Shown: piece by piece, positions 797 through 9,861 of the stretch
Position numbering within the stretch: the stretch's first letter is position 1
Layout: every line of letters starts with the position of its first letter
Source: Spirochaetales bacterium
GTDB lineage: Bacteria > Spirochaetota > Spirochaetia > Treponematales > UBA12059
Assembly (NCBI GenBank): GCA_004525355.1
Contig: SPCK01000029.1
Location: 1 to 11,792, forward strand
Direction of reading: 5' to 3'
Length of the DNA stretch: 11,792 bases
The notes under the pieces: generated by a model
Database searches by the model: none
What the model was told of the DNA's origin: nothing
The model's input: only the letters and a program-made list of their open reading frames with translations
Made by a program: the position numbers and the translations under genes

Positions 797-1837
797 TTAC
801 TTCGCGGGAATCTCGGAAACCACCAGCTCGCCGGAGGCGATCTTGGTGGCGTATTCCTTGACAATGGTCATGATGTCAGCCGAGAGGTTGGGGTTGGAAT
901 CGGGGACGCCAACGCCGTTGTTCTTGAGTGAGAACACCAGTACCTGGCCACCAGGGAACTGTCCATCAAGAGCCATCTGGGCCACATCGTGAGCGGCTAC
1001 GTCGACGCGCTTCATCATGGAGGTCAGCACGGCGGACTTGTCACCGTACATACCGTCGGTGTACTGATCCTTGTCCACGCCAATCGCCCAGCGGACGTCG
1101 CCCTTCTCCGAGCGTTCCTTGGCTTCCTTGATCATACCGTTTCCGGTGCCGCCAGCGGCATGGAAGATGATATAGGCGCCAGCGTTGAACTGCTTCTGCG
1201 CAATGGCCTGGCCCTTGTCGGGAGCGCCGAAATCACCAGCATAGTCGACAAGAATCTTGGCGGTGGGGAACACGGCCTTGACGCCCTGCTCGAAACCGGC
1301 CTGGAACTTCTCGATGAGCGGGAACTGCATGCCGCCAATGAATCCGAGAACGGATTTACCGTCAGCCTTGGCCTTCAGGCCGGCAACGACGCCGACGAGG
1401 AAGGAGCCTTCATGTTCGGCGAACACGGCGCTGACCACATTGGGCTTCTGCACTACTGTGTCGATTACCAGAAGTTTCTGGTTGGGGTACTTGTCGGCAA
1501 CTTCACCCATGGCCTTCTCGAAAAGGAAGCCTGGGGCGACGATCAGGTCGAGTTTCTCGTCGGCGAAAGTGCTGAGGTTAGGTACGTAGTCGGCTTCGGC
1601 TGCGGACTGGAGATACTTGATGTCGGTGCCTTTTACAAGGCCCTTCTCCTGAGCGAAACGGACGATGCCTTCCCAGGTACCCTGGTTGAAAGACTTGTCA
1701 TCGATACCACCGAGGTCGGTAACGAGACCAACTTTAAACGTGGGTGCCATAACCTCGGGGGCTTCTTCCTTCTTGGCGCAGCTGCTGAATACCAGCGCAA
1801 CGGCAAGGAGGGCAATAAGAATCGTGCGGTACTTCAT
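797..1837 (-). CDS. Bmp/PnrA (TmpC)-family nucleoside-binding lipoprotein
   Basis: A 346-residue substrate-binding lipoprotein. The signal peptide MKYRTILIALLAVALVFSSC ends in a lipobox with Cys20 as the lipidated residue, followed by a charged tether (AKKEEAPE). The mature part carries the family hallmarks: VTDLGGIDDKSFNQGTWEG (39-57), GFIGGMQFPLIEKF (165-178), IIFHAAGGTGNG (223-234), GVDKDQY (253-259) and SMMKRVD (273-279). The closest characterised relative by motif is Treponema pallidum PnrA (Tp0319), a purine-nucleoside receptor. The positions I equate with ligand contacts there (Asn51, Asp126, Asp255, Lys276) are all present, but that equation is from memory, not from an alignment. It should sit in the envelope and hand nucleosides to the ABC importer whose ATPase follows. 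The start is supported by AGGAGAGAG just upstream of the ATG. It has its own candidate promoter and a strong terminator. The exact ligand (purine, pyrimidine or deoxy form) is not readable from the sequence. Confidence 0.95.
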   Translation of the reverse strand: MKYRTILIALLAVALVFSSCAKKEEAPEVMAPTFKVGLVTDLGGIDDKSFNQGTWEGIVRFAQEKGLVKGTDIKYLQSAAEADYVPNLSTFADEKLDLIVAPGFLFEKAMGEVADKYPNQKLLVIDTVVQKPNVVSAVFAEHEGSFLVGVVAGLKAKADGKSVLGFIGGMQFPLIEKFQAGFEQGVKAVFPTAKILVDYAGDFGAPDKGQAIAQKQFNAGAYIIFHAAGGTGNGMIKEAKERSEKGDVRWAIGVDKDQYTDGMYGDKSAVLTSMMKRVDVAAHDVAQMALDGQFPGGQVLVFSLKNNGVGVPDSNPNLSADIMTIVKEYATKIASGELVVSEIPAK

Positions 1838-1974: not shown

Positions 1975-3126
1975 TCAACGCAGACGGGCCAGAAAGTCGG
2001 CAGTTTCGACTGCATCGGTAGGAACTATGATATCGCCGTCAACCACGAGGTGCGCGATCCCGGATAGTGCGACCAGATCTTCCCGCTCGATACCCTCGGT
2101 CGTGTAGCCGACGCCGCCGTCTGCGAGCGTGTAGGTCCTGTATCCACCAACCAATCGAAAACCACTGGCCAACTCGAAACCGGCATCGTAGATTACTTTG
2201 TCTACCCGCTTGAGCGTGGACATCACGATCAGCGGAGCCAGGGAGCGCATATCGGGATCCCCGGATGCCGCATAGAGCATCGCCTGATCCGCGTCGGAGC
2301 CGAGAGCTTTCCTGCCAAAACGTGCCGCGCTGTTAAAAACGCCCTTGCCGGAAGCTCCCGCCGCCTGGTAAATGATTACGGCATTTCCCGTTTGAAAAAG
2401 CGCAGAGGCAAATTCGGCAGCTCGCTTGGGATCAGCGAAAGCATCTGCGCCCCGTCCGACGAATGCCGACAGAATGGCTCCCGTCGGCTGTAGCGCGCGA
2501 TTGGTCCACGCCGCTCCGGCGGAGAAACCCGCAAGGTGCTTTCGCATTATCGGCATGTCCATGCCACCTACGAAACCGACCTTCGCGGTCGGGCCCTCTC
2601 GTGCGGCAAGCCGGCCAGCAAACGCGCCCGCCATGAACGCCGATTCCTGCTCCGCGAACTGGGCGCAGACAATATTGGACATTGTTGTCAGGTCCGGGGT
2701 ATAGCCGTCGATAAGGAGAAAATCAGTATCCGGGAAATCTCGGGCGATGGCAGCCATGGTGGTCGAGAAAAAGAATCCAACCGCTATCACCAGATTCCGA
2801 CCCTCCTCCGCGAGAGATCGCAACAAGGTTTCACGATCGGAACCGGTCGCGTCGGTCTCCAGAACACGGATATCGATATTACCGCCAAAATTAGCCGCGG
2901 GATCTCCAGCGATCCAACCTCGCAGACTTTCAGCAAGCCGCAGTACACCGTCATAAGCAGTGCGGTTGAGAGCAAGGTCCGCACGACCGCCTACGTCCAG
3001 GACCATGCCGATCTTGGGCTCGGCGGTTCTGGTAATAGCGACTCGTCCGGCGGCGGGGCCCTGGCCGCAGGAGGCCAAAAGAAAGAGGGCCATCATCATT
3101 GATGCTACCAACGATCTTCCATTCAC
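1975..3126 (-). CDS. Divergent Bmp/PnrA-family substrate-binding lipoprotein (GTG start)
   Basis: A 383-residue paralogue of the next gene. The GTG at 3124-3126 is preceded by a full AGGAGG at six-base spacing and yields a compact lipoprotein signal, MNGRSLVASMMMALFLLASC, with Cys20 as the lipid-modified residue. Family motifs are recognisable but altered: MVLDVGGRADLALNRTAYDG (41-60) replaces the usual DLGGIDDKSFN segment, keeping Asn54; then LLIDG (137-141, Asp140), GFVGGMDMPIMRKHLAGF (184-201), YQAAGASGKGVF (253-264), GSDADQ (276-281, Asp278) and STLKRVD (303-309, Lys306). The residues I would match to PnrA ligand contacts are retained while the surroundings differ, suggesting a nucleoside-like ligand of different specificity. 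It lies 64 bases after deoC on the same strand with no terminator between, so it is probably co-transcribed. It may share the downstream ABC transporter with its paralogue, or act as a sensor-type receptor. It is about 40 residues longer than the other Bmp protein. Confidence 0.88.
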   Translation of the reverse strand: MNGRSLVASMMMALFLLASCGQGPAAGRVAITRTAEPKIGMVLDVGGRADLALNRTAYDGVLRLAESLRGWIAGDPAANFGGNIDIRVLETDATGSDRETLLRSLAEEGRNLVIAVGFFFSTTMAAIARDFPDTDFLLIDGYTPDLTTMSNIVCAQFAEQESAFMAGAFAGRLAAREGPTAKVGFVGGMDMPIMRKHLAGFSAGAAWTNRALQPTGAILSAFVGRGADAFADPKRAAEFASALFQTGNAVIIYQAAGASGKGVFNSAARFGRKALGSDADQAMLYAASGDPDMRSLAPLIVMSTLKRVDKVIYDAGFELASGFRLVGGYRTYTLADGGVGYTTEGIEREDLVALSGIAHLVVDGDIIVPTDAVETADFLARLR

Positions 3127-3190: not shown

Positions 3191-3862
3191 CTACTCTGGC
3201 AGTTCCGCGACAATTGTGACGCCGCTCGACGCGCCGATTCGATCCGCGCCTGCATCAAGCATCTGAATGGCATCATGATAGCTGCGAATACCACCGGATG
3301 CCTTTATCTTCAGCTTGTCGCCCACGACCTTGCGCATGAGCTTGACATCGTCGGCATCGGTCCCGCCCGTTCCAAAACCCGTGCTGGTCATCACGAAATG
3401 AGCACCTGCCTTCATCGCCGCTTCGCAGGCTTTGGTTTTTTCGGAATCCGTAAGGTAGCAGTTTTCAATAATGACCTTGACGGTTGCCTTTCCGGCTGCC
3501 TTGATCACCTCGCGGATGTCTTCCTCGACGGTCTTCCAGTCGCCGGACTTCGCGGCGCCGAGGTTGATGACCATATCCACCTCATGTGCGCCCTGCCTGA
3601 CGGCAAGCGCGGTCTCCTCGACCTTGATGGCGGTGGCGTTGGCCCCGAGGGGAAAGCCGATCACCGTGCATACCATCACCTTGGACCCTGACAGTTCGCG
3701 GGCGCACAGCGGCACCCAGAAGGGATTGACGCAAACGCTGGCGAAGCTATTGGCCTTGGCTTCCACGCATAGTTCGCGCACCTGCTGCTCGGTTGCCACA
3801 GTCTTGAGCACGGTATGGTCGATCGTCTTGGCGATGCTCGCCTTGGTCCATTCCTTGGGCAT
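3191..3862 (-). CDS. deoC: DeoC-family deoxyribose-phosphate aldolase lacking the Schiff-base lysine
   Basis: A 223-residue TIM-barrel protein of normal length for the short bacterial DeoC type. Matching motifs in order: TIDHTVLK (13-20), VCVNPFWV (43-50), [11 protein letters not shown] (64-74), EVDMVIN (94-100, with Asp96 at the catalytic Asp position), VKVIIEN (128-134), TSTGFGTGG (159-167), IKASGGIR (186-193, with Lys187 as the proton-relay lysine) and GASSG near the C-terminus. DeoC cleaves 2-deoxyribose-5-phosphate to glyceraldehyde-3-phosphate and acetaldehyde through a Schiff base on the lysine of the KTSTG motif (Lys167 in E. coli). Here that residue is Met158, codon ATG at 3389-3391, one base away from AAG. 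So the fold and substrate-site motifs are clear, but the canonical chemistry is in doubt. Its ATG is preceded by AGGAGAG, which overlaps the stop of the HD gene. The following Bmp genes and ABC ATPase suggest deoxynucleoside uptake and catabolism. Confidence 0.9.
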
Positions 3863-3866
3863 ATAT

Positions 3867-3873
3867 CTCTCCT
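3867..3873 (-). promoter_or_regulatory. deoC Shine-Dalgarno overlapping the upstream stop codon
   Basis: AGGAGAG on the minus strand shares bases with the TAG stop (3872-3874) of the HD gene and lies four bases before the deoC ATG. Ribosomes finishing the HD protein would sit on this site, so the two genes are probably translationally coupled. Confidence 0.7.
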
Positions 3874-4477
3874 ATATCTCGAAACAGCGGGACAGAAACG
3901 CTCGCCGTGTACCTACCAGATCCTCGAGTTCGGTTTTCATGACCGGGTTCACCTGTTCCGCGATGGGATAGACGAAGCGTTCGGTTTCATCCGTATATCG
4001 GCGTATGAACTCGATGTCCGTCGTATAGCCCAGCGATATCATGTTGCTGATGCGATCCGCGGCTTTGAGTATCTTGGCCATGGTCGATCCATATTTCAGG
4101 ATACGACCCAGGAATTCAGGCTTGGACTCGACCTGCCGCCTTGTAACCTCAAGCACGAGCTTGTAGACGGCCGCGCTTTCTCCCTCTATCTCCAATATCC
4201 GGTCACGATCGAATTCGGGGATATCCTCGAGCAAGTCGTGGATAACCGATGCCTTGAGGAGGATCGAATCTATGTACCCATAGTCCATGAGTACGGCCAT
4301 GGTATCGATCTGGTGCCGGAACATATTGCCGCCCGAACGGCGGCGTTTGCCGATAAGCAGAGTCGCGAGCTGGATATATGGCGCGAGATGCATTTCCTTG
4401 AGGCGTATCATCTCCTCTTCGGCCATGGTCTGCGGCGTCGTTTCGCTTTGATCCAGGGGCCTGCCTTGTCCGGGCAT
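3872..4477 (-). CDS. Standalone HD-domain protein resembling (p)ppGpp hydrolases (small alarmone hydrolase/MESH1 type)
   Basis: A 201-residue soluble protein made of one HD phosphohydrolase domain. From memory of the Rel/SpoT hydrolase domain, the metal and catalytic positions line up in order: RRSGG (46-50) at the place of RKSGE, His55, His80-Asp81, Glu84-Asp85 in HDLLEDIPE (80-88), LVLEVTR (107-113) at the place of LVEGVTK, AADRISNM (139-146) at the place of LADRLHNM with Asp141 and Asn145, and ETERFVYPIAEQV (164-176) at the place of the ETLEIYAPLAHRL helix. There is no synthetase, TGS or ACT domain, so it matches single-domain alarmone hydrolases in size and layout. The Arg-Thr after the LHNM segment is replaced by Ile147-Ser148, so a different nucleotide substrate is possible. 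The first 20 or so residues are polar and may be disordered. It sits between valS and deoC with a good Shine-Dalgarno (AGGAGA). An HD hydrolase assignment is fairly safe; (p)ppGpp as substrate is an inference. Confidence 0.8.
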   Translation of the reverse strand: MPGQGRPLDQSETTPQTMAEEEMIRLKEMHLAPYIQLATLLIGKRRRSGGNMFRHQIDTMAVLMDYGYIDSILLKASVIHDLLEDIPEFDRDRILEIEGESAAVYKLVLEVTRRQVESKPEFLGRILKYGSTMAKILKAADRISNMISLGYTTDIEFIRRYTDETERFVYPIAEQVNPVMKTELEDLVGTRRAFLSRCFEI

Positions 4478-4481
4478 CGCG

Positions 4482-4487
4482 TCTCCT
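4482..4487 (-). promoter_or_regulatory. HD-gene Shine-Dalgarno overlapping the valS stop
   Basis: AGGAGA on the minus strand overlaps the valS TAG (4486-4488) and lies four bases before the HD-gene ATG at 4475-4477. The overlap indicates co-transcription and probable translational coupling with valS. Confidence 0.7.
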
Positions 4488-7131
4488 ATGACAAATCCTC
4501 GAGGTATTTTTCCAGCTTGGCAACCCTGGCGAGTGCATCAGCCAGCTTTTCCCGTTCCTTGTCTACCACCTCTGCGGGAGCGCTCGCCACGAAATCTTCA
4601 TTGGCAATCTTGGCGGTGACCCGTTCGGCGAACTGCCGTTCCTTGTCCGCGTCTTTTTTGAAGCGCGACGCGAGCTGGGCAACGTCCACAGCTTCGCGGG
4701 CGAATACGTAGCATTCAAAACCGTGGCCGGCCAACGCCAGCGCTCCGGCGGGTTTTGCTCCCACGAAATCCACCGACAGGGCATTCACCAGAAGCGCCGT
4801 CAGTTCCGAGTTGCGCGCCAGGAATTCCCCGTCATCCCGACCGGCATCCACGCGTACCGCTACCTTGAGCTTGTGCTCCGCGGCGATGCCGAACTCGCTC
4901 CGCAGGGAGCGCACCAGTGAAACGAGCTCCTTGAGCGTGCCGAAGCGGGCATCCAGGCCTGGATCTCTACGTTCTGCCTCGTCCTTCGGATAGGCCCTGA
5001 CTATCAGGCGACCGGCGGCGGCGGGAAGCTTGCCGTATATCTCTTCAGTGACGAAGGGCAGGAACGGATGCAGGAGCGCGAGAGATTCGGTCAGCGTGTC
5101 CAGGAGAACGGTGACCGCGCGGTCCTTCTCGCCATCATCACCCGATCTGGTCGAGAGTTTCGTGGCCTCCAGGTACCAGTCGCAGAAGTCGTTCCAGAAA
5201 TATTCGTACACGGCGCTTGCCGCGTCGTTGAACCGGTACGAGGCCATGGCCTCGGCGACCGCGGCCGAGCTGACGCACAGCCTGTGCCGGATCCAACGGT
5301 CTGCGTCATTCAATACCGGCTCGGGCACTAGCTCCCGGCCTTCCAGATTCATCAATATATAGCGACTGGCGTTCCATACCTTGTTGGCGAATTTGGAGCC
5401 CAGCTTGAAATCGTCCTTTTTGATGAGTATGTCCTGTGTGGAAGTATACAGGAAGGCCAAGGTGAACTTCAGGGCATCGGCGCCGAATTCGTCTACGATC
5501 TCCAGTGGATCGATGCCGTTGCCCAGGCTCTTGGACATCTTGCGACCCTGTTTGTCGCGAACCAGCGTCGTCATGCAGATATCCCTGAACGGGACCTGAC
5601 CCGTAAACTCGAGGCCCGCCATGATCATGCGCGCGACCCAGAAGAAAATGATGTCGAAACCGGTTAAAAGAGTGCTCGTGGGATAGAACTTGCGCAGGTC
5701 GGCCGTGTCTTTCGGCCAGCCCATCACGCTGAAGGGCCAGAGCCAGGAGCTGAACCAGGTATCCAGAACGTCCTCGTCCTGCCGAAGCTCGGATGACTTG
5801 CACTTTGGGCAGATCGTAGGCTCTTCCCGTTCCACCATGACGTATCCGCAGTGGTCGCAGTACCACACGGGTATCCGGTGCCCCCACCACAACTGACGGC
5901 TGATGCACCAATCCCTGATATTCGTGAGCCATTGCTCGTAGGTGTGTTCCCAACGCTGCGGGTAGAACCGCACGTCGCCGTCGCGCCAGGCCTTGAGCGC
6001 CTTCTCGGCCAGGGGCTTCATCTTCACGAACCACTGTTCGGACAGGTAGGGTTCGACCGCGGTATGGCAACGGTAACAGTGGCCGACCGAATGGGTGATC
6101 GGCTTTTCGTCGACGAACAAGCCCAGGACCTTCAGGTCTTCCACCACGAGCTTTCGGGCTTCCCGGGCCTTGAGCCCGCGGTACTTCTCCGGGACGTTCT
6201 CGTTGAGAGTGCCGTCGGGGTTGAGAATATTGATCCGTTCCAGATTATGGCGGTTGCCCACCTCAAAATCGTTGGGGTCATGCGCGGGAGTTATTTTTAC
6301 CAGGCCCGTACCGAACTCGCGATCCACGTAGCTGTCGGCAATCAGGGGTATGGTACGATCGGCCAGCGGAAGCTTGAGGAGCTTCCCGACGAGATTCGCG
6401 TATCGATCATCCTCGGGATGGCATGCCACCGCCGTATCGCCCAGGAGGGTCTCCGGACGCGTCGTGGCTATCTCGATCGATCCGGAGCCATCGACATATT
6501 CGTACCGGATATGGTACATGGCACCGTTCTCGTCCTCGTGCTCGACCTCGTCGTCGGCCAGCGCCGTCCCACAGGAACTGCACCAGTTGACCAGGTACTT
6601 GCCCCGGTAGACGAGGCCGCGTTCGTACAGCGTCACGAAGACGTCGCGAACGGCCTTGGACAGGCCCTCGTCGAGCGTGAAACGCTCCCGACTCCAGTCG
6701 CAGGACGAACCTATCTTCTCGAGCTGTTTCTTGATGATGTCATGGTGCTCGTTCGCGACCTTCCAGGTCTCTTCGACGAACTTTTCCCGGCCCATTTCAT
6801 GGCGATCGACGCCCCGGGCCCGAAGTATCTTCTCCACCACGTGCTGGGTCGCGATGCCGGCATGATCCATCCCGGGCACCCACAGGGCGGGACGGCCGTT
6901 CATGCGGTGGTAGCGCATGAGGATGTCGGGTATCGCGTTGTTGAGGCCATGGCCCATGTGCAGCACGCCTGTAACGTTCGGCGGAGGCATCACCATGACG
7001 AATGGCTTCTTTCCGGTGCCGGGCTTGCCCCCGGCGTTCGGCTGGAAGAGGCCTTCCTTCTTCCATGCCTCGTAGATGCGGTCCTCGAATTCTTTCGGGT
7101 CGTAGGCCTTGGCCAGCTCGACGGCTTTCAT
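4486..7131 (-). CDS. valS: Valyl-tRNA synthetase
   Basis: An 881-residue class Ia synthetase that attaches valine to tRNA(Val) in the cytoplasm, full length for the bacterial enzyme. The HIGH-type motif is HMGH (58-61) within PPPNVTGVLHMGHG, and the second signature is KMSKS (531-535). Between them lie the connective peptide with editing domain (TTRPETLLGDTA, YVDREFGTGLVKITPAHDPND) and cysteine pairs of zinc-binding type: WCSSC near 183-187, CYRCH, and CDHC followed by CPKC before LDTWFSSWLWPFS. The C-terminus has the anticodon-binding helices and the valS-specific coiled-coil arm (about 820-881, ending EKLADALARVAKLEKYLEDL). The ATG at 7129-7131 is preceded by GGAGGA and directly gives the expected N-terminus (LAKAYDPKEFEDRIYEAWKKEGLF). 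No key residue is missing. It heads the cluster valS-HD-deoC, with no recognisable T-box or other leader in front. The DEFGADALKFTLAF segment after KMSKS and the coiled-coil arm favour valine over isoleucine or leucine. Confidence 0.98.
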   Translation of the reverse strand: MKAVELAKAYDPKEFEDRIYEAWKKEGLFQPNAGGKPGTGKKPFVMVMPPPNVTGVLHMGHGLNNAIPDILMRYHRMNGRPALWVPGMDHAGIATQHVVEKILRARGVDRHEMGREKFVEETWKVANEHHDIIKKQLEKIGSSCDWSRERFTLDEGLSKAVRDVFVTLYERGLVYRGKYLVNWCSSCGTALADDEVEHEDENGAMYHIRYEYVDGSGSIEIATTRPETLLGDTAVACHPEDDRYANLVGKLLKLPLADRTIPLIADSYVDREFGTGLVKITPAHDPNDFEVGNRHNLERINILNPDGTLNENVPEKYRGLKAREARKLVVEDLKVLGLFVDEKPITHSVGHCYRCHTAVEPYLSEQWFVKMKPLAEKALKAWRDGDVRFYPQRWEHTYEQWLTNIRDWCISRQLWWGHRIPVWYCDHCGYVMVEREEPTICPKCKSSELRQDEDVLDTWFSSWLWPFSVMGWPKDTADLRKFYPTSTLLTGFDIIFFWVARMIMAGLEFTGQVPFRDICMTTLVRDKQGRKMSKSLGNGIDPLEIVDEFGADALKFTLAFLYTSTQDILIKKDDFKLGSKFANKVWNASRYILMNLEGRELVPEPVLNDADRWIRHRLCVSSAAVAEAMASYRFNDAASAVYEYFWNDFCDWYLEATKLSTRSGDDGEKDRAVTVLLDTLTESLALLHPFLPFVTEEIYGKLPAAAGRLIVRAYPKDEAERRDPGLDARFGTLKELVSLVRSLRSEFGIAAEHKLKVAVRVDAGRDDGEFLARNSELTALLVNALSVDFVGAKPAGALALAGHGFECYVFAREAVDVAQLASRFKKDADKERQFAERVTAKIANEDFVASAPAEVVDKEREKLADALARVAKLEKYLEDLS

Positions 7132-7608: not shown

Positions 7609-9726
7609 TCAATTGAGGTCCTTGGGCTCGCTGCCGTGACGGGCGATCCCGTCCAGATAACGCCTCGTGGGCTTGTCGTCGGGCAAGGCTTCGGCTACGG
7701 CGACCAGATGCTGCCGCGCCTCATCGAAGCGCCTGCCATAGTACGCTTCCACGCCACGCTCGAATTCATCCTTCACGCGTTCCTTTCGTTCGATCATTTC
7801 AGCTTCATCGCCGTCGTAAATTTCGAATACAGATACCGGTTGTCGTTTGTTCTTCACGCGCACTCTTCCTATGAAACGCATCCTGAAGAGCGTCGGGTCC
7901 TGCAGAGCCGAGAACACGCTCTCGCTGGCGGCTATGCCCATCGCGTATTCCTTGGCCACCCCCTCAAGGCGGCTGGCGGTATTGACCACGTCGGAGATGA
8001 CCGTTCCATCCATCCTGGCTGATTCTCCGATGGTCCCCAGCATGAGCGTTCCGACATGGACGCCAATTCCTACGGCGATCGAGTCCCGGCCTTGCCCGGC
8101 GCGCTCGACATTGTAGGCCCTGACCCTTGCCTGGATATCGATCGCGCAGCGTACCGCGGATTCGGCGCCGGCAGGAAACAACGCCATGAAGCCGTCCCCC
8201 AGATACTTGTCGATGAAGCCGCCATGGGCGCGCACGGCCGGGCCTGTCCTGGCCAGGTATTCGTTGATGAAGGTGAAGGTCTCTTCCGGCGTCAGGTTCT
8301 CGGCCATCCACGTAAAGGCCCGGACATCGGCAAAGAGGACGGCCATGTCCTCGGCGCTGTGATCGCCCAGCTCGATCTCCTCGATATTCGACTTCTTGAG
8401 GAAACCGAGAAACTCGCGGGGTACGAAGCGCTCGAGCGACTCGTTCACGCGCCTCAAATCTCCCGTCAACCGCTCGGCCATGGTGAATGCCCCGGCGAAA
8501 AGCCTTGTCATGTTCAGGGACAGTGCTAATAAGAATGCCATCATCCCCAACTGGGTGATGAACACGCCCTGCACCAGCCCCCCCGCTACGAACATGTCAT
8601 AAATCGTGGCTGCAAAGATGGCCAGAAAGCCCAGCCCGAACAAACCAGCCCCCCGCTTGCGCCTCACCGCGGCCAAGACGATCGCGGCCGCGATGCCCAG
8701 GCCGACGAGCACGACCGAAAGCTGGTACCAGCGCAGGACGCCGGACGCGAAAAACGAAGAAGTAAACAGGATGATACCCGTGTACGCTGCCGATGCGCCG
8801 CCCGCAAACCACACGCCCCATTGCGGCAGTTCGTCGGGAAAGCTCGCCCGGACAAACGCGGTAACAATGACCGCCCCCGCGGTGAAGGTCAGGTAGCCGA
8901 GCACAAACAACGCGCGGAAGGACATTCCGGGGAAGATTGCCAGTATGAAGTACTCGTCGTAGAACAACACCCGCACACCCAGCACCAGACACAGCAAGCC
9001 GAACCAAAGCGATGCCCGGTCTCCGTGCCTGAACATGAACAAGCCCAGGTAATATGCTCCCATGGCCAGGATGGCTCCCACGACGAACAGCTCGTAGGCG
9101 ATCGATCCTACCTTGTGCGCCCAGACATCGTCTGGATGGCCAAGGAACAGGCTCGTCCTGAGCCCGCCCGATCGGTCGGCAAAGTTGGATACATGCAAAA
9201 CCAAGTCAATTGAACCATCGCTGTCAGCCCGCAAAGTGGAAACGTGGGACATCCAGCCGGGGCGCTCTTCCGACTCAGTCCTTCCCGGGGTCCCATGCGA
9301 GTCGATCAGCACTCCATTCGCGAAGATACGCCCGGCGCTCAGGAACGAGGACGCGGACAAACCATACAGAGCGAGCGGCTCCAGACCCAGTATCCGCAGA
9401 CGCCAGGTCCCGAATCCCCGGACGGCGACACCGGGTATGGGATAGCTCGCCCACTCGGACGGGAAGGATGCCATCAGATTGGGTTGAGGCTGTCTCCCGC
9501 TCATGAAGGAATCCGGATCGACGAAACGGTTCCAGTAGAACTCCCATTCCCCGTCCAACGCAAGCAGGTCGCCAAGATCAACACCGGATACGTCCAGTAC
9601 GCCGCCGGCTGCGGCACTATCGCGAGCAGGGGCTGAACATGATGCGAGGCTCAGAATCAGGACGGCAGCCAATGCAGGTCCAATGGAAAGGCGCCGATAC
9701 GATCTTCGGGTGTCATGAAGGTTCAT
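7609..9726 (-). CDS. Membrane-bound class III adenylate cyclase with lipobox and 7TMR-DISM-like sensor
   Basis: A 705-residue signalling protein. Residues 1-30 look like a lipoprotein signal (hydrophobic stretch ending LASC, Cys30). Residues about 45-200 form a periplasmic beta-rich sensor resembling 7TMR-DISM extracellular domains (LDGEWEFYWNRF, FGTWRLRI, RIFANG, HVSNF). Residues about 208-410 hold roughly seven hydrophobic membrane helices. The linker ERFVPREFLGFLKKSNIEEIELGD (432-455) leads to a class III cyclase domain: metal-binding Asp467 (LFADVRAFT) and Asp511 (YLGDGF), Lys507 as the adenine-recognising lysine, Thr575 at the second specificity position, and Asn582 and Arg586 in VVNTASRLE. 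Lys plus Thr indicates ATP as substrate and cAMP as product. Residues about 645-697 resemble a single TPR-like hairpin. The architecture is common in spirochaetes. The ATG at 9724-9726 is chosen because it places the signal peptide at the N-terminus; there is no clear Shine-Dalgarno, and an ATG at 9823-9825 would add 33 uncharacteristic residues. The signal sensed is unknown, and neighbours give no hint. Confidence 0.92.
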   Translation of the reverse strand: MNLHDTRRSYRRLSIGPALAAVLILSLASCSAPARDSAAAGGVLDVSGVDLGDLLALDGEWEFYWNRFVDPDSFMSGRQPQPNLMASFPSEWASYPIPGVAVRGFGTWRLRILGLEPLALYGLSASSFLSAGRIFANGVLIDSHGTPGRTESEERPGWMSHVSTLRADSDGSIDLVLHVSNFADRSGGLRTSLFLGHPDDVWAHKVGSIAYELFVVGAILAMGAYYLGLFMFRHGDRASLWFGLLCLVLGVRVLFYDEYFILAIFPGMSFRALFVLGYLTFTAGAVIVTAFVRASFPDELPQWGVWFAGGASAAYTGIILFTSSFFASGVLRWYQLSVVLVGLGIAAAIVLAAVRRKRGAGLFGLGFLAIFAATIYDMFVAGGLVQGVFITQLGMMAFLLALSLNMTRLFAGAFTMAERLTGDLRRVNESLERFVPREFLGFLKKSNIEEIELGDHSAEDMAVLFADVRAFTWMAENLTPEETFTFINEYLARTGPAVRAHGGFIDKYLGDGFMALFPAGAESAVRCAIDIQARVRAYNVERAGQGRDSIAVGIGVHVGTLMLGTIGESARMDGTVISDVVNTASRLEGVAKEYAMGIAASESVFSALQDPTLFRMRFIGRVRVKNKRQPVSVFEIYDGDEAEMIERKERVKDEFERGVEAYYGRRFDEARQHLVAVAEALPDDKPTRRYLDGIARHGSEPKDLN

Positions 9727-9735
9727 AGTGCGAAG

Positions 9736-9741
9736 ATCATA
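9736..9741 (-). promoter_or_regulatory. Possible -10 element of the cyclase gene
   Basis: TATGAT on the minus strand (five of six matches to TATAAT) ends nine bases before the chosen ATG. No good -35 lies 16-18 bases upstream. If it is used, transcription would begin almost at the start codon and give a leaderless mRNA, which would explain the missing Shine-Dalgarno. Confidence 0.3.
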
Positions 9742-9783
9742 ACTGAAAAGCTTATGGAAAGACAGACATCCACGCCTACCTCG

Positions 9784-9812
9784 TTGCTTCCTTGCACCCT
9801 GCGGGTTATACT
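9784..9812 (+). promoter_or_regulatory. Promoter of the small plus-strand gene
   Basis: TTGCTT (9784-9789) and TATACT (9807-9812) are separated by exactly 17 bases; the -10 matches five of six consensus positions and the -35 three of six. Transcription would start near 9819, giving a leader of about 55 bases up to the ATG at 9875. With the Shine-Dalgarno and terminator downstream this completes a self-contained unit. Confidence 0.5.
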
Positions 9813-9861
9813 GTTCGATGAGCATGAAAGGGCATCGCCATGCCGTTTCTCTATATTAGCC

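Follow-up and report, generated by a model that had tools for sequence, protein, structure and literature searches.

The window analysed here, a stretch of 11,792 nucleotides from a Spirochaetales bacterium, carries a deoC gene whose product has methionine (Met158) at the column of the lysine that forms the Schiff base in E. coli DeoC (Lys167), and the same lysine is recurrently missing from orthologues at the same locus in two spirochaete families. DeoC is a textbook example of a class I aldolase and is used in industry as a biocatalyst; here parsimony counts at least nine losses of its nucleophile within the two families, with the active site otherwise mostly intact. The loss probably reflects a genuine shift in function, not an error of sequencing. 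The explanation that we favour, with moderate confidence, is that Met158 is real, that the aldolase work moved into a microcompartment of the SPU type, and that the cytosolic DeoC was disarmed and kept as a phosphosugar-binding protein.

A DeoC-family protein without the Schiff-base lysine

The gene (3191..3862, minus strand) reads through from 3862 to 3191 as 223 codons with no internal stop, and its product matched the deoC model TIGR00126 at 261.1 bits (cut-off 117.3) over model positions 2-210 of 211; PF01791 also matched. The reading frame is therefore undamaged, as the initial annotation had held, and its assignment of Met to the Schiff-base lysine column was confirmed by the bases, the translation and the alignment with E. 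coli DeoC: the plus strand reads CAT at 3389-3391, which gives ATG on the minus strand as codon 158 (3389..3391), and Met158 aligns with Lys167. The same alignment pairs Asp96 (3575..3577, minus strand) with Asp102 and Lys187 (3302..3304, minus strand) with Lys201, and the phosphate-loop glycines are also kept, in agreement with the earlier description of the remaining active site as intact. A chance or misread motif was rejected, the column being anchored both by the E. coli alignment and by the 120 homologues listed.

Among these 120 homologues, the window protein included, column 158 held K in 117, M in one (the window protein), Q in one and T in one. The nearest homologues, like the named loci, come from spirochaetes. 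Two other residues set the protein apart on the minus strand: Asn at codon 134 (3461..3463), next to Glu133, where 117 of the 119 other homologues listed have Thr, and Thr at codon 168 (3359..3361), where all 119 have Ala. Its count of odd residues, four over 118 strongly conserved columns, is not extreme among the 120 rows listed: the number is higher in four rows (8, 8, 6 and 5), and three of these have the lysine. Coupling of the T134 change to the loss of the lysine was considered, but T134 is also altered in two lysine-keeping relatives (Ala in G009, Ser in G019), and the co-change was therefore dropped as support.

Set beside the class I aldolase DeoC/DERA (EC 4.1.2.4; TIGR00126, PF01791), the window protein has the family, the length, the Asp102 and Lys201 equivalents and the phosphate-loop glycines and serine of the catalytic enzyme, but differs in lacking its Schiff-base lysine, the column being Met, and in the changes T134N and A168T. 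Judged from its sequence, it is very likely a DeoC orthologue that is no longer able to act as a class I aldolase of the Lys167 type.

Recurrent loss of the lysine among relatives

The lysine was missing from 15 of the 44 syntenic orthologues (gene order valS-HD-deoC) of the two spirochaete families, with Met in five and Gln in ten. Within the genome's own family, 8 of 20 orthologues were without it, the window protein and G008 carrying Met and G002, G003, G005, G006, G007 and G011 carrying Gln158; in the second family, which belongs to the same taxonomic order, the count was 7 of 24, with Met in G407, G434 and G438 and Gln158 in G383, G410, G413 and G429. These orthologues come from 23 genomes searched in the own family, where G018 and G022 gave no match and G013 an edge fragment only, and from 30 genomes searched in the second, where G411 and G415 gave no match, G374 gave weak hits only, and G430 (partial, with the column missing) as well as G265 and G412 (other DeoC types only) were left out.

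Three homologue searches pooled to 257 homologues had K at column 158 in 240, M in 9, Q in 7 and T in 1, counts that are not to be taken as population frequencies because all three queries were lysine-less and several hits are genes of the genome set. The initial annotation had asked whether Met is conserved at this column; it recurs there in a minority of homologues, and lysine is the rule. Lysines 20, 80, 129, 142 and 187 were K in 257 of 257 homologues, and K80, K105, K129, K142 and K187 were constant in all 45 genome-set rows (the 44 orthologues and P0068), in which K20 was replaced by Arg three times and the less conserved lysine columns 7, 121 and 177 varied freely. On trees from which column 158 was excluded, the fewest changes between K and not-K were 9 among the 44 orthologues, 10 in a 66-row tree with second copies and P0068, and 14 in a 288-row FastTree tree, all of which are estimates because branch support is uneven.

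In the wider bacteria, the best 80 of 237 relatives, which are the nearest matches of one query and not a random sample, all had K at column 158. A motif pattern with TCN serine codons, which missed the window's own AGC codon, gave matches in 43 of 392 genomes, 45 in total and every one with K. A pattern in which the codon after Phe did not start with A, and which took in neither Met variants nor Tyr-preceded motifs, gave 10 matches in 10 of 390 genomes; five were DeoC with Q, and the other five, judged from their letters, were taken as chance.

The one-base neighbours of the lysine codon AAG encode E, Q, R, T, M and N, with E and R reached by transitions. The replacements observed were Q, M and one T only; E and R, which transitions would give, were not among them. 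By a simple calculation, with AAG as the ancestral codon, neutral mutation and a transition bias of 2, the chance of at least nine of ten events being M or Q is ~1e-5. Of the uncharged residues, Met and Gln come nearest to lysine in length, which suggests selection for the shape of the pocket.

Selection and the state of the pocket

No internal stop was present in any of the 15 lysine-less orthologues, and selection on them is purifying. dN/dS was 0.10, 0.14 and 0.165 for the lysine-less pairs among G005, G006 and G007 and 0.18 for G002-G003, compared with 0.068 and 0.075 for lysine pairs at similar identity, an approximately twofold difference that rests on few pairs; a nearly identical lysine pair gave 0.008 and the distant lysine pair G012-G021 gave 0.159. 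Comparisons of lysine-less with lysine-keeping genes gave 0.13 to 0.20 (G008, G011 and G002), and the window gene against three lysine-keeping relatives gave 0.069 to 0.105, values that average both lineages. In lysine-less relatives of two genera a catalytic residue has thus been lost under purifying selection, the mark of a pseudoenzyme. The earlier proposal of a catalytically dead or repurposed DeoC gains support from the recurrence of the loss, from the restriction of the replacements to Met, Gln and one Thr, and from clades with low dN/dS.

Lys187 was kept in all 16 rows that lack lysine 158 (15 genomes and P0068), and the equivalents of E. coli D16, C47, T168, T170, G171, K201, G204, G205, G236 and S238 were likewise unchanged in all 16. 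T17S was present in 7 of the 16 lysine-less rows and in 0 of 29 lysine rows. In one genus (L016, L017 and L019), the active sites of three lysine-less members combine Q158 with D96E and S160G. Over the lysine-less rows, pocket columns were changed in 15 of 288 cells, compared with 54 of 944 for other invariant columns; the pocket columns were chosen by us after the E. coli site and limited to those that do not vary among lysine rows.

Path lengths were greater in lysine-less rows (median 0.75 versus 0.55 in lysine rows; Mann-Whitney p 4e-4, the rows not being independent), and beyond position 158 the lysine-less rows had 1-8 changes at columns invariant in lysine rows, compared with 0-3 when each lysine row was left out in turn. 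The window gene, with a path of 0.59, lies within the lysine range of 0.21-0.76.

Gene neighbourhood

The genes of the window lie on the minus strand in the order peptidase (M3-like by eye), 7TMR-DISM cyclase, valS, small HD gene, deoC, two Bmp/PnrA-like genes and ABC ATPase. The HD gene (3872..4477, minus strand), separated from deoC by nine bases, encodes a RelA/SpoT-hydrolase-like protein that matched TIGR00691 at E 9e-7, far under the cut-off, and PDB 7p1y (HD domain-containing protein) at E 2e-64, with no Pfam match; a search for literature on entry 7P1Y returned none. From these matches the protein is a candidate alarmone or nucleotide hydrolase. Next to it lies valS (valyl-tRNA synthetase, 4486..7131, minus strand), which was named from its sequence without a family search, and upstream of valS a cyclase with a 7TMR-DISM sensor region (7609-9825; PF07695, PF00211) that was seen in only some relatives' loci. 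On the other side of deoC are two Bmp/PnrA-like substrate-binding proteins, the adjoining one at 1975..3108 (PF02608, E 4e-38) and another at 797..1837 (PF02608, E 6e-71), both on the minus strand. These two tandem proteins diverge at markedly unequal rates: in comparisons with G004, G013-G015, G017, G019 and G020, the protein at 797-1837 was 82-87% identical and that at 1975-3108 was 37-52% identical. An open reading frame cut by the contig end (1..864, minus strand) holds the start of a sugar/nucleoside-type ABC ATPase, its NF047930 match (E 1e-63) falling under the cut-off as expected of a fragment.

All 43 other orthologue loci contained the HD gene, which adjoined deoC in each of the 42 with positions (not G404), and the HD motif was present in 43 of 44 loci (G412 included), G001 being cut by the contig end. 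valS lay upstream in 41 of 43 orthologue loci; in G001 and G408 the contig stops before that point. The order valS-HD-deoC was identical with and without the lysine, whereas Bmp/PnrA-like receptors follow deoC in many but not all relatives. Since the constant neighbours are valS and the HD gene, conservation does not point to the role proposed in the initial annotation, that of a subunit beside nucleoside receptors.

A second DeoC and its link to microcompartments

A second DeoC was present in 14 of the 15 lysine-less genomes but in only 3 of the 29 lysine-keeping genomes (G004, G012 and G404; Fisher p 8e-8, kinship ignored). In G436 an additional, K-bearing fragment of the orthologue at a contig edge was excluded as a second copy. 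All 21 other DeoC rows compared carry K at column 158, a set that leaves out four matches (G265:C12, G265:C156, G002:C9 and G003:C29). One clade holds fourteen second copies from orthologue-bearing genomes, and 13 of these have N-terminal tails, for example MDQNQIIQKIVEEVL, with none seen in G008; judged by eye, the tail resembles an encapsulation peptide. Scanning of three second-DeoC loci showed RpiB (PF02502) in G004 and G383, aldehyde dehydrogenase (PF00171) in G004, G383 and G434, and EutN/CcmL (PF03319) in G383. A PF00936 shell gene was located on the second-DeoC contig in G002, G003, G004, G005, G006, G007 and G011 and, in the second family, in G383, G407, G410, G413, G429 and G434, that is, in 12 of 15 lysine-less versus 1 of 29 lysine-keeping genomes. 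The loci look like those of SPU (sugar phosphate utilizing) bacterial microcompartments, whose DeoC is described in passages of PMC4207490 and PMC8217296 and which, in the latter, share DeoC and RpiB. In most lysine-less relatives the second DeoC resembles the SPU enzyme in its tail and in its association with RpiB, aldehyde dehydrogenase and shell genes. The window protein belongs to the same family but differs in having no tail (it starts just before the barrel), in standing in the valS-HD-deoC locus and in lacking the lysine.

Shell genes of any kind were present in 13 of 15 lysine-less versus 6 of 29 lysine-keeping genomes; in five of the latter (G017, G409, G414, G432 and G436) they were of other kinds and on contigs without a DeoC, and G004 has the compartment DeoC yet keeps the lysine. 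Lysine-less G438 (69% complete) has a second copy of another type, and part of a shell gene lies at the edge of one of its contigs. Lysine-less G008 has a second copy of the main clade and an aldehyde dehydrogenase match of only 31%; neither a PF00936 shell gene nor a compartment-type aldehyde dehydrogenase was found in its 57% complete assembly. Restriction to independent pairs on supported branches left four pairs with a trend that is in the expected direction and not significant, averaging 3.4 in that direction and 0.1 opposite for any second DeoC, and 2.6 and 0.0, respectively, for the compartment-type DeoC.

The genome to which the window belongs, 2.65 Mb in 506 contigs at 93.4% completeness, is the exception. 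A second, lysine-bearing deoC, for which a search had been suggested in the initial annotation, did not turn up: the Pfam model and a protein search to E 10 returned the window's match only. No PF00936 shell gene was found in these 506 contigs, nor did a compartment-type aldehyde dehydrogenase turn up at E 1e-30. As DeoC, shell gene and aldehyde dehydrogenase would share one locus, a single assembly gap could hide all three, the second DeoC included; alternatively, the compartment and its DeoC may have disappeared at some time after the lysine did. The evidence for the compartment link therefore comes from the relatives and not from the window's own organism. The gene deoB (phosphopentomutase), considered as a sign of nucleoside catabolism, was found in none of the 23 genomes of the family, lysine-keeping ones included, and is therefore uninformative.

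Interpretation of the loss

The scheme that we favour begins with confinement of deoxyribose 5-phosphate cleavage, which releases acetaldehyde, to the inside of a microcompartment. A cytosolic aldolase would then be useless or harmful and could have been disarmed by one substitution, while the protein and its phosphosugar pocket would have been retained for a role that also involves binding deoxyribose 5-phosphate or a similar ligand, perhaps as a sensor, a buffer or a partner of the HD protein. Since the pocket is largely kept, the retained role is most likely phosphosugar binding without covalent chemistry, as far as sequence conservation can indicate. A bolder form, which we advance as speculation and think rather unlikely, would have gain of the DeoC microcompartment select, repeatedly and in a nearly predictable way, disarming to Met or Gln as neutral residues of lysine-like shape, with the cytosolic DeoC serving as a deoxyribose-5-phosphate sensor that signals the load of the pathway to the HD protein. 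Against the compartment reading stand the exceptions of the window's genome, G004 and G008 and the shell genes of five lysine-keeping genomes.

The longer paths of the lysine-less rows are compatible, too, with relaxed constraint. In this reading, arrival of the second DeoC made the protein redundant and slow decay followed, with the lysine going first since only catalysis had been released. The changes at invariant columns and the dN/dS of 0.10-0.18, compared with 0.068 and 0.075 in two lysine pairs, point the same way. We nevertheless find decay unlikely, for no internal stop occurs in any lysine-less orthologue, dN/dS is well under 1 and reaches 0.159 in the more distant lysine pair G012-G021 too, the pocket is preserved as well as other invariant columns, and the substitutes never include E or R. 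Persistence of carbonyl chemistry, with Lys187 as the Schiff-base lysine or through another reaction in which lysine 158 is dispensable, seems to us improbable to a similar degree. Lys201 of E. coli DeoC presumably sits on the neighbouring strand, and a relocated Schiff-base lysine has reportedly been engineered in KDPG aldolase in the laboratory. Passages of one review (PMC2431125) in which this relocation was sought did not contain it. The invariance of Lys187 in all rows without lysine 158 agrees with such chemistry, and the coupling of the loss to D96E and S160G in one genus could be retuning; yet Lys187 is equally invariant in normal DeoC, so that its presence is not special, and the link to a second DeoC that has the lysine suggests that the original reaction now takes place elsewhere.

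A role independent of the pocket, in protein-protein contact with the adjacent HD protein or with ValRS and with aldolase activity always a second job, would account for the retention of valS-HD-deoC whether or not the lysine is present and for the HD motif in nearly all loci. It leaves the kept pocket residues, Lys187 among them, unexplained, and gene order alone may merely reflect a shared transcript; we consider it quite improbable. Least credible is an error in sequencing or assembly that turned AAG into ATG in an ordinary DeoC, an option that the initial annotation had left standing as a single A-to-T error. One base would suffice, the aldolase would otherwise be absent from a genome in which no second DeoC was found, and neither the path nor the odd-residue count of the window gene is out of the ordinary. 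However, Met stands at this column in four further genomes and in nine of the 257 homologues, the window protein included, which places the prior for a true Met far above the error rate, and an identical protein is listed on two contigs, although these may be one assembly entered twice. An error is accordingly very improbable.

Compartment-driven disarming, our preferred reading, would resemble known pseudoenzymes, which in general have lost a catalytic residue and kept a binding pocket; here, too, the residue is lost and the pocket kept, and a lysine-bearing paralogue is present in most of the lysine-less relatives' genomes. It differs in that the loss is recurrent and parallel, leads to two lysine-like neutral residues and is tied to one kind of gene gain, and in that no paralogue was found in the window's own genome. 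Among the papers listed in the literature searches, which included few subscription papers, there was no earlier account of lysine-less DeoC orthologues. Because the loss accompanies another DeoC, mostly one that resembles microcompartment cargo, it offers a testable case of organelle gain reshaping cytosolic metabolism. Annotation of a gene as deoC does not mean that it encodes an aldolase, and the natural lysine-less variants could be used for ligand-binding studies.

Other DeoC types in these genomes

In G412, the valS-HD-deoC slot is occupied by a different, lysine-bearing DeoC (L209:5263-5919), which clusters among the second copies. Four genomes of one genus (L195, L197, L199 and L200) have a third type of DeoC that keeps the lysine and has no tail, and in L195 and L200 it is adjoined by a gene that by eye is aldo/keto-reductase-like.
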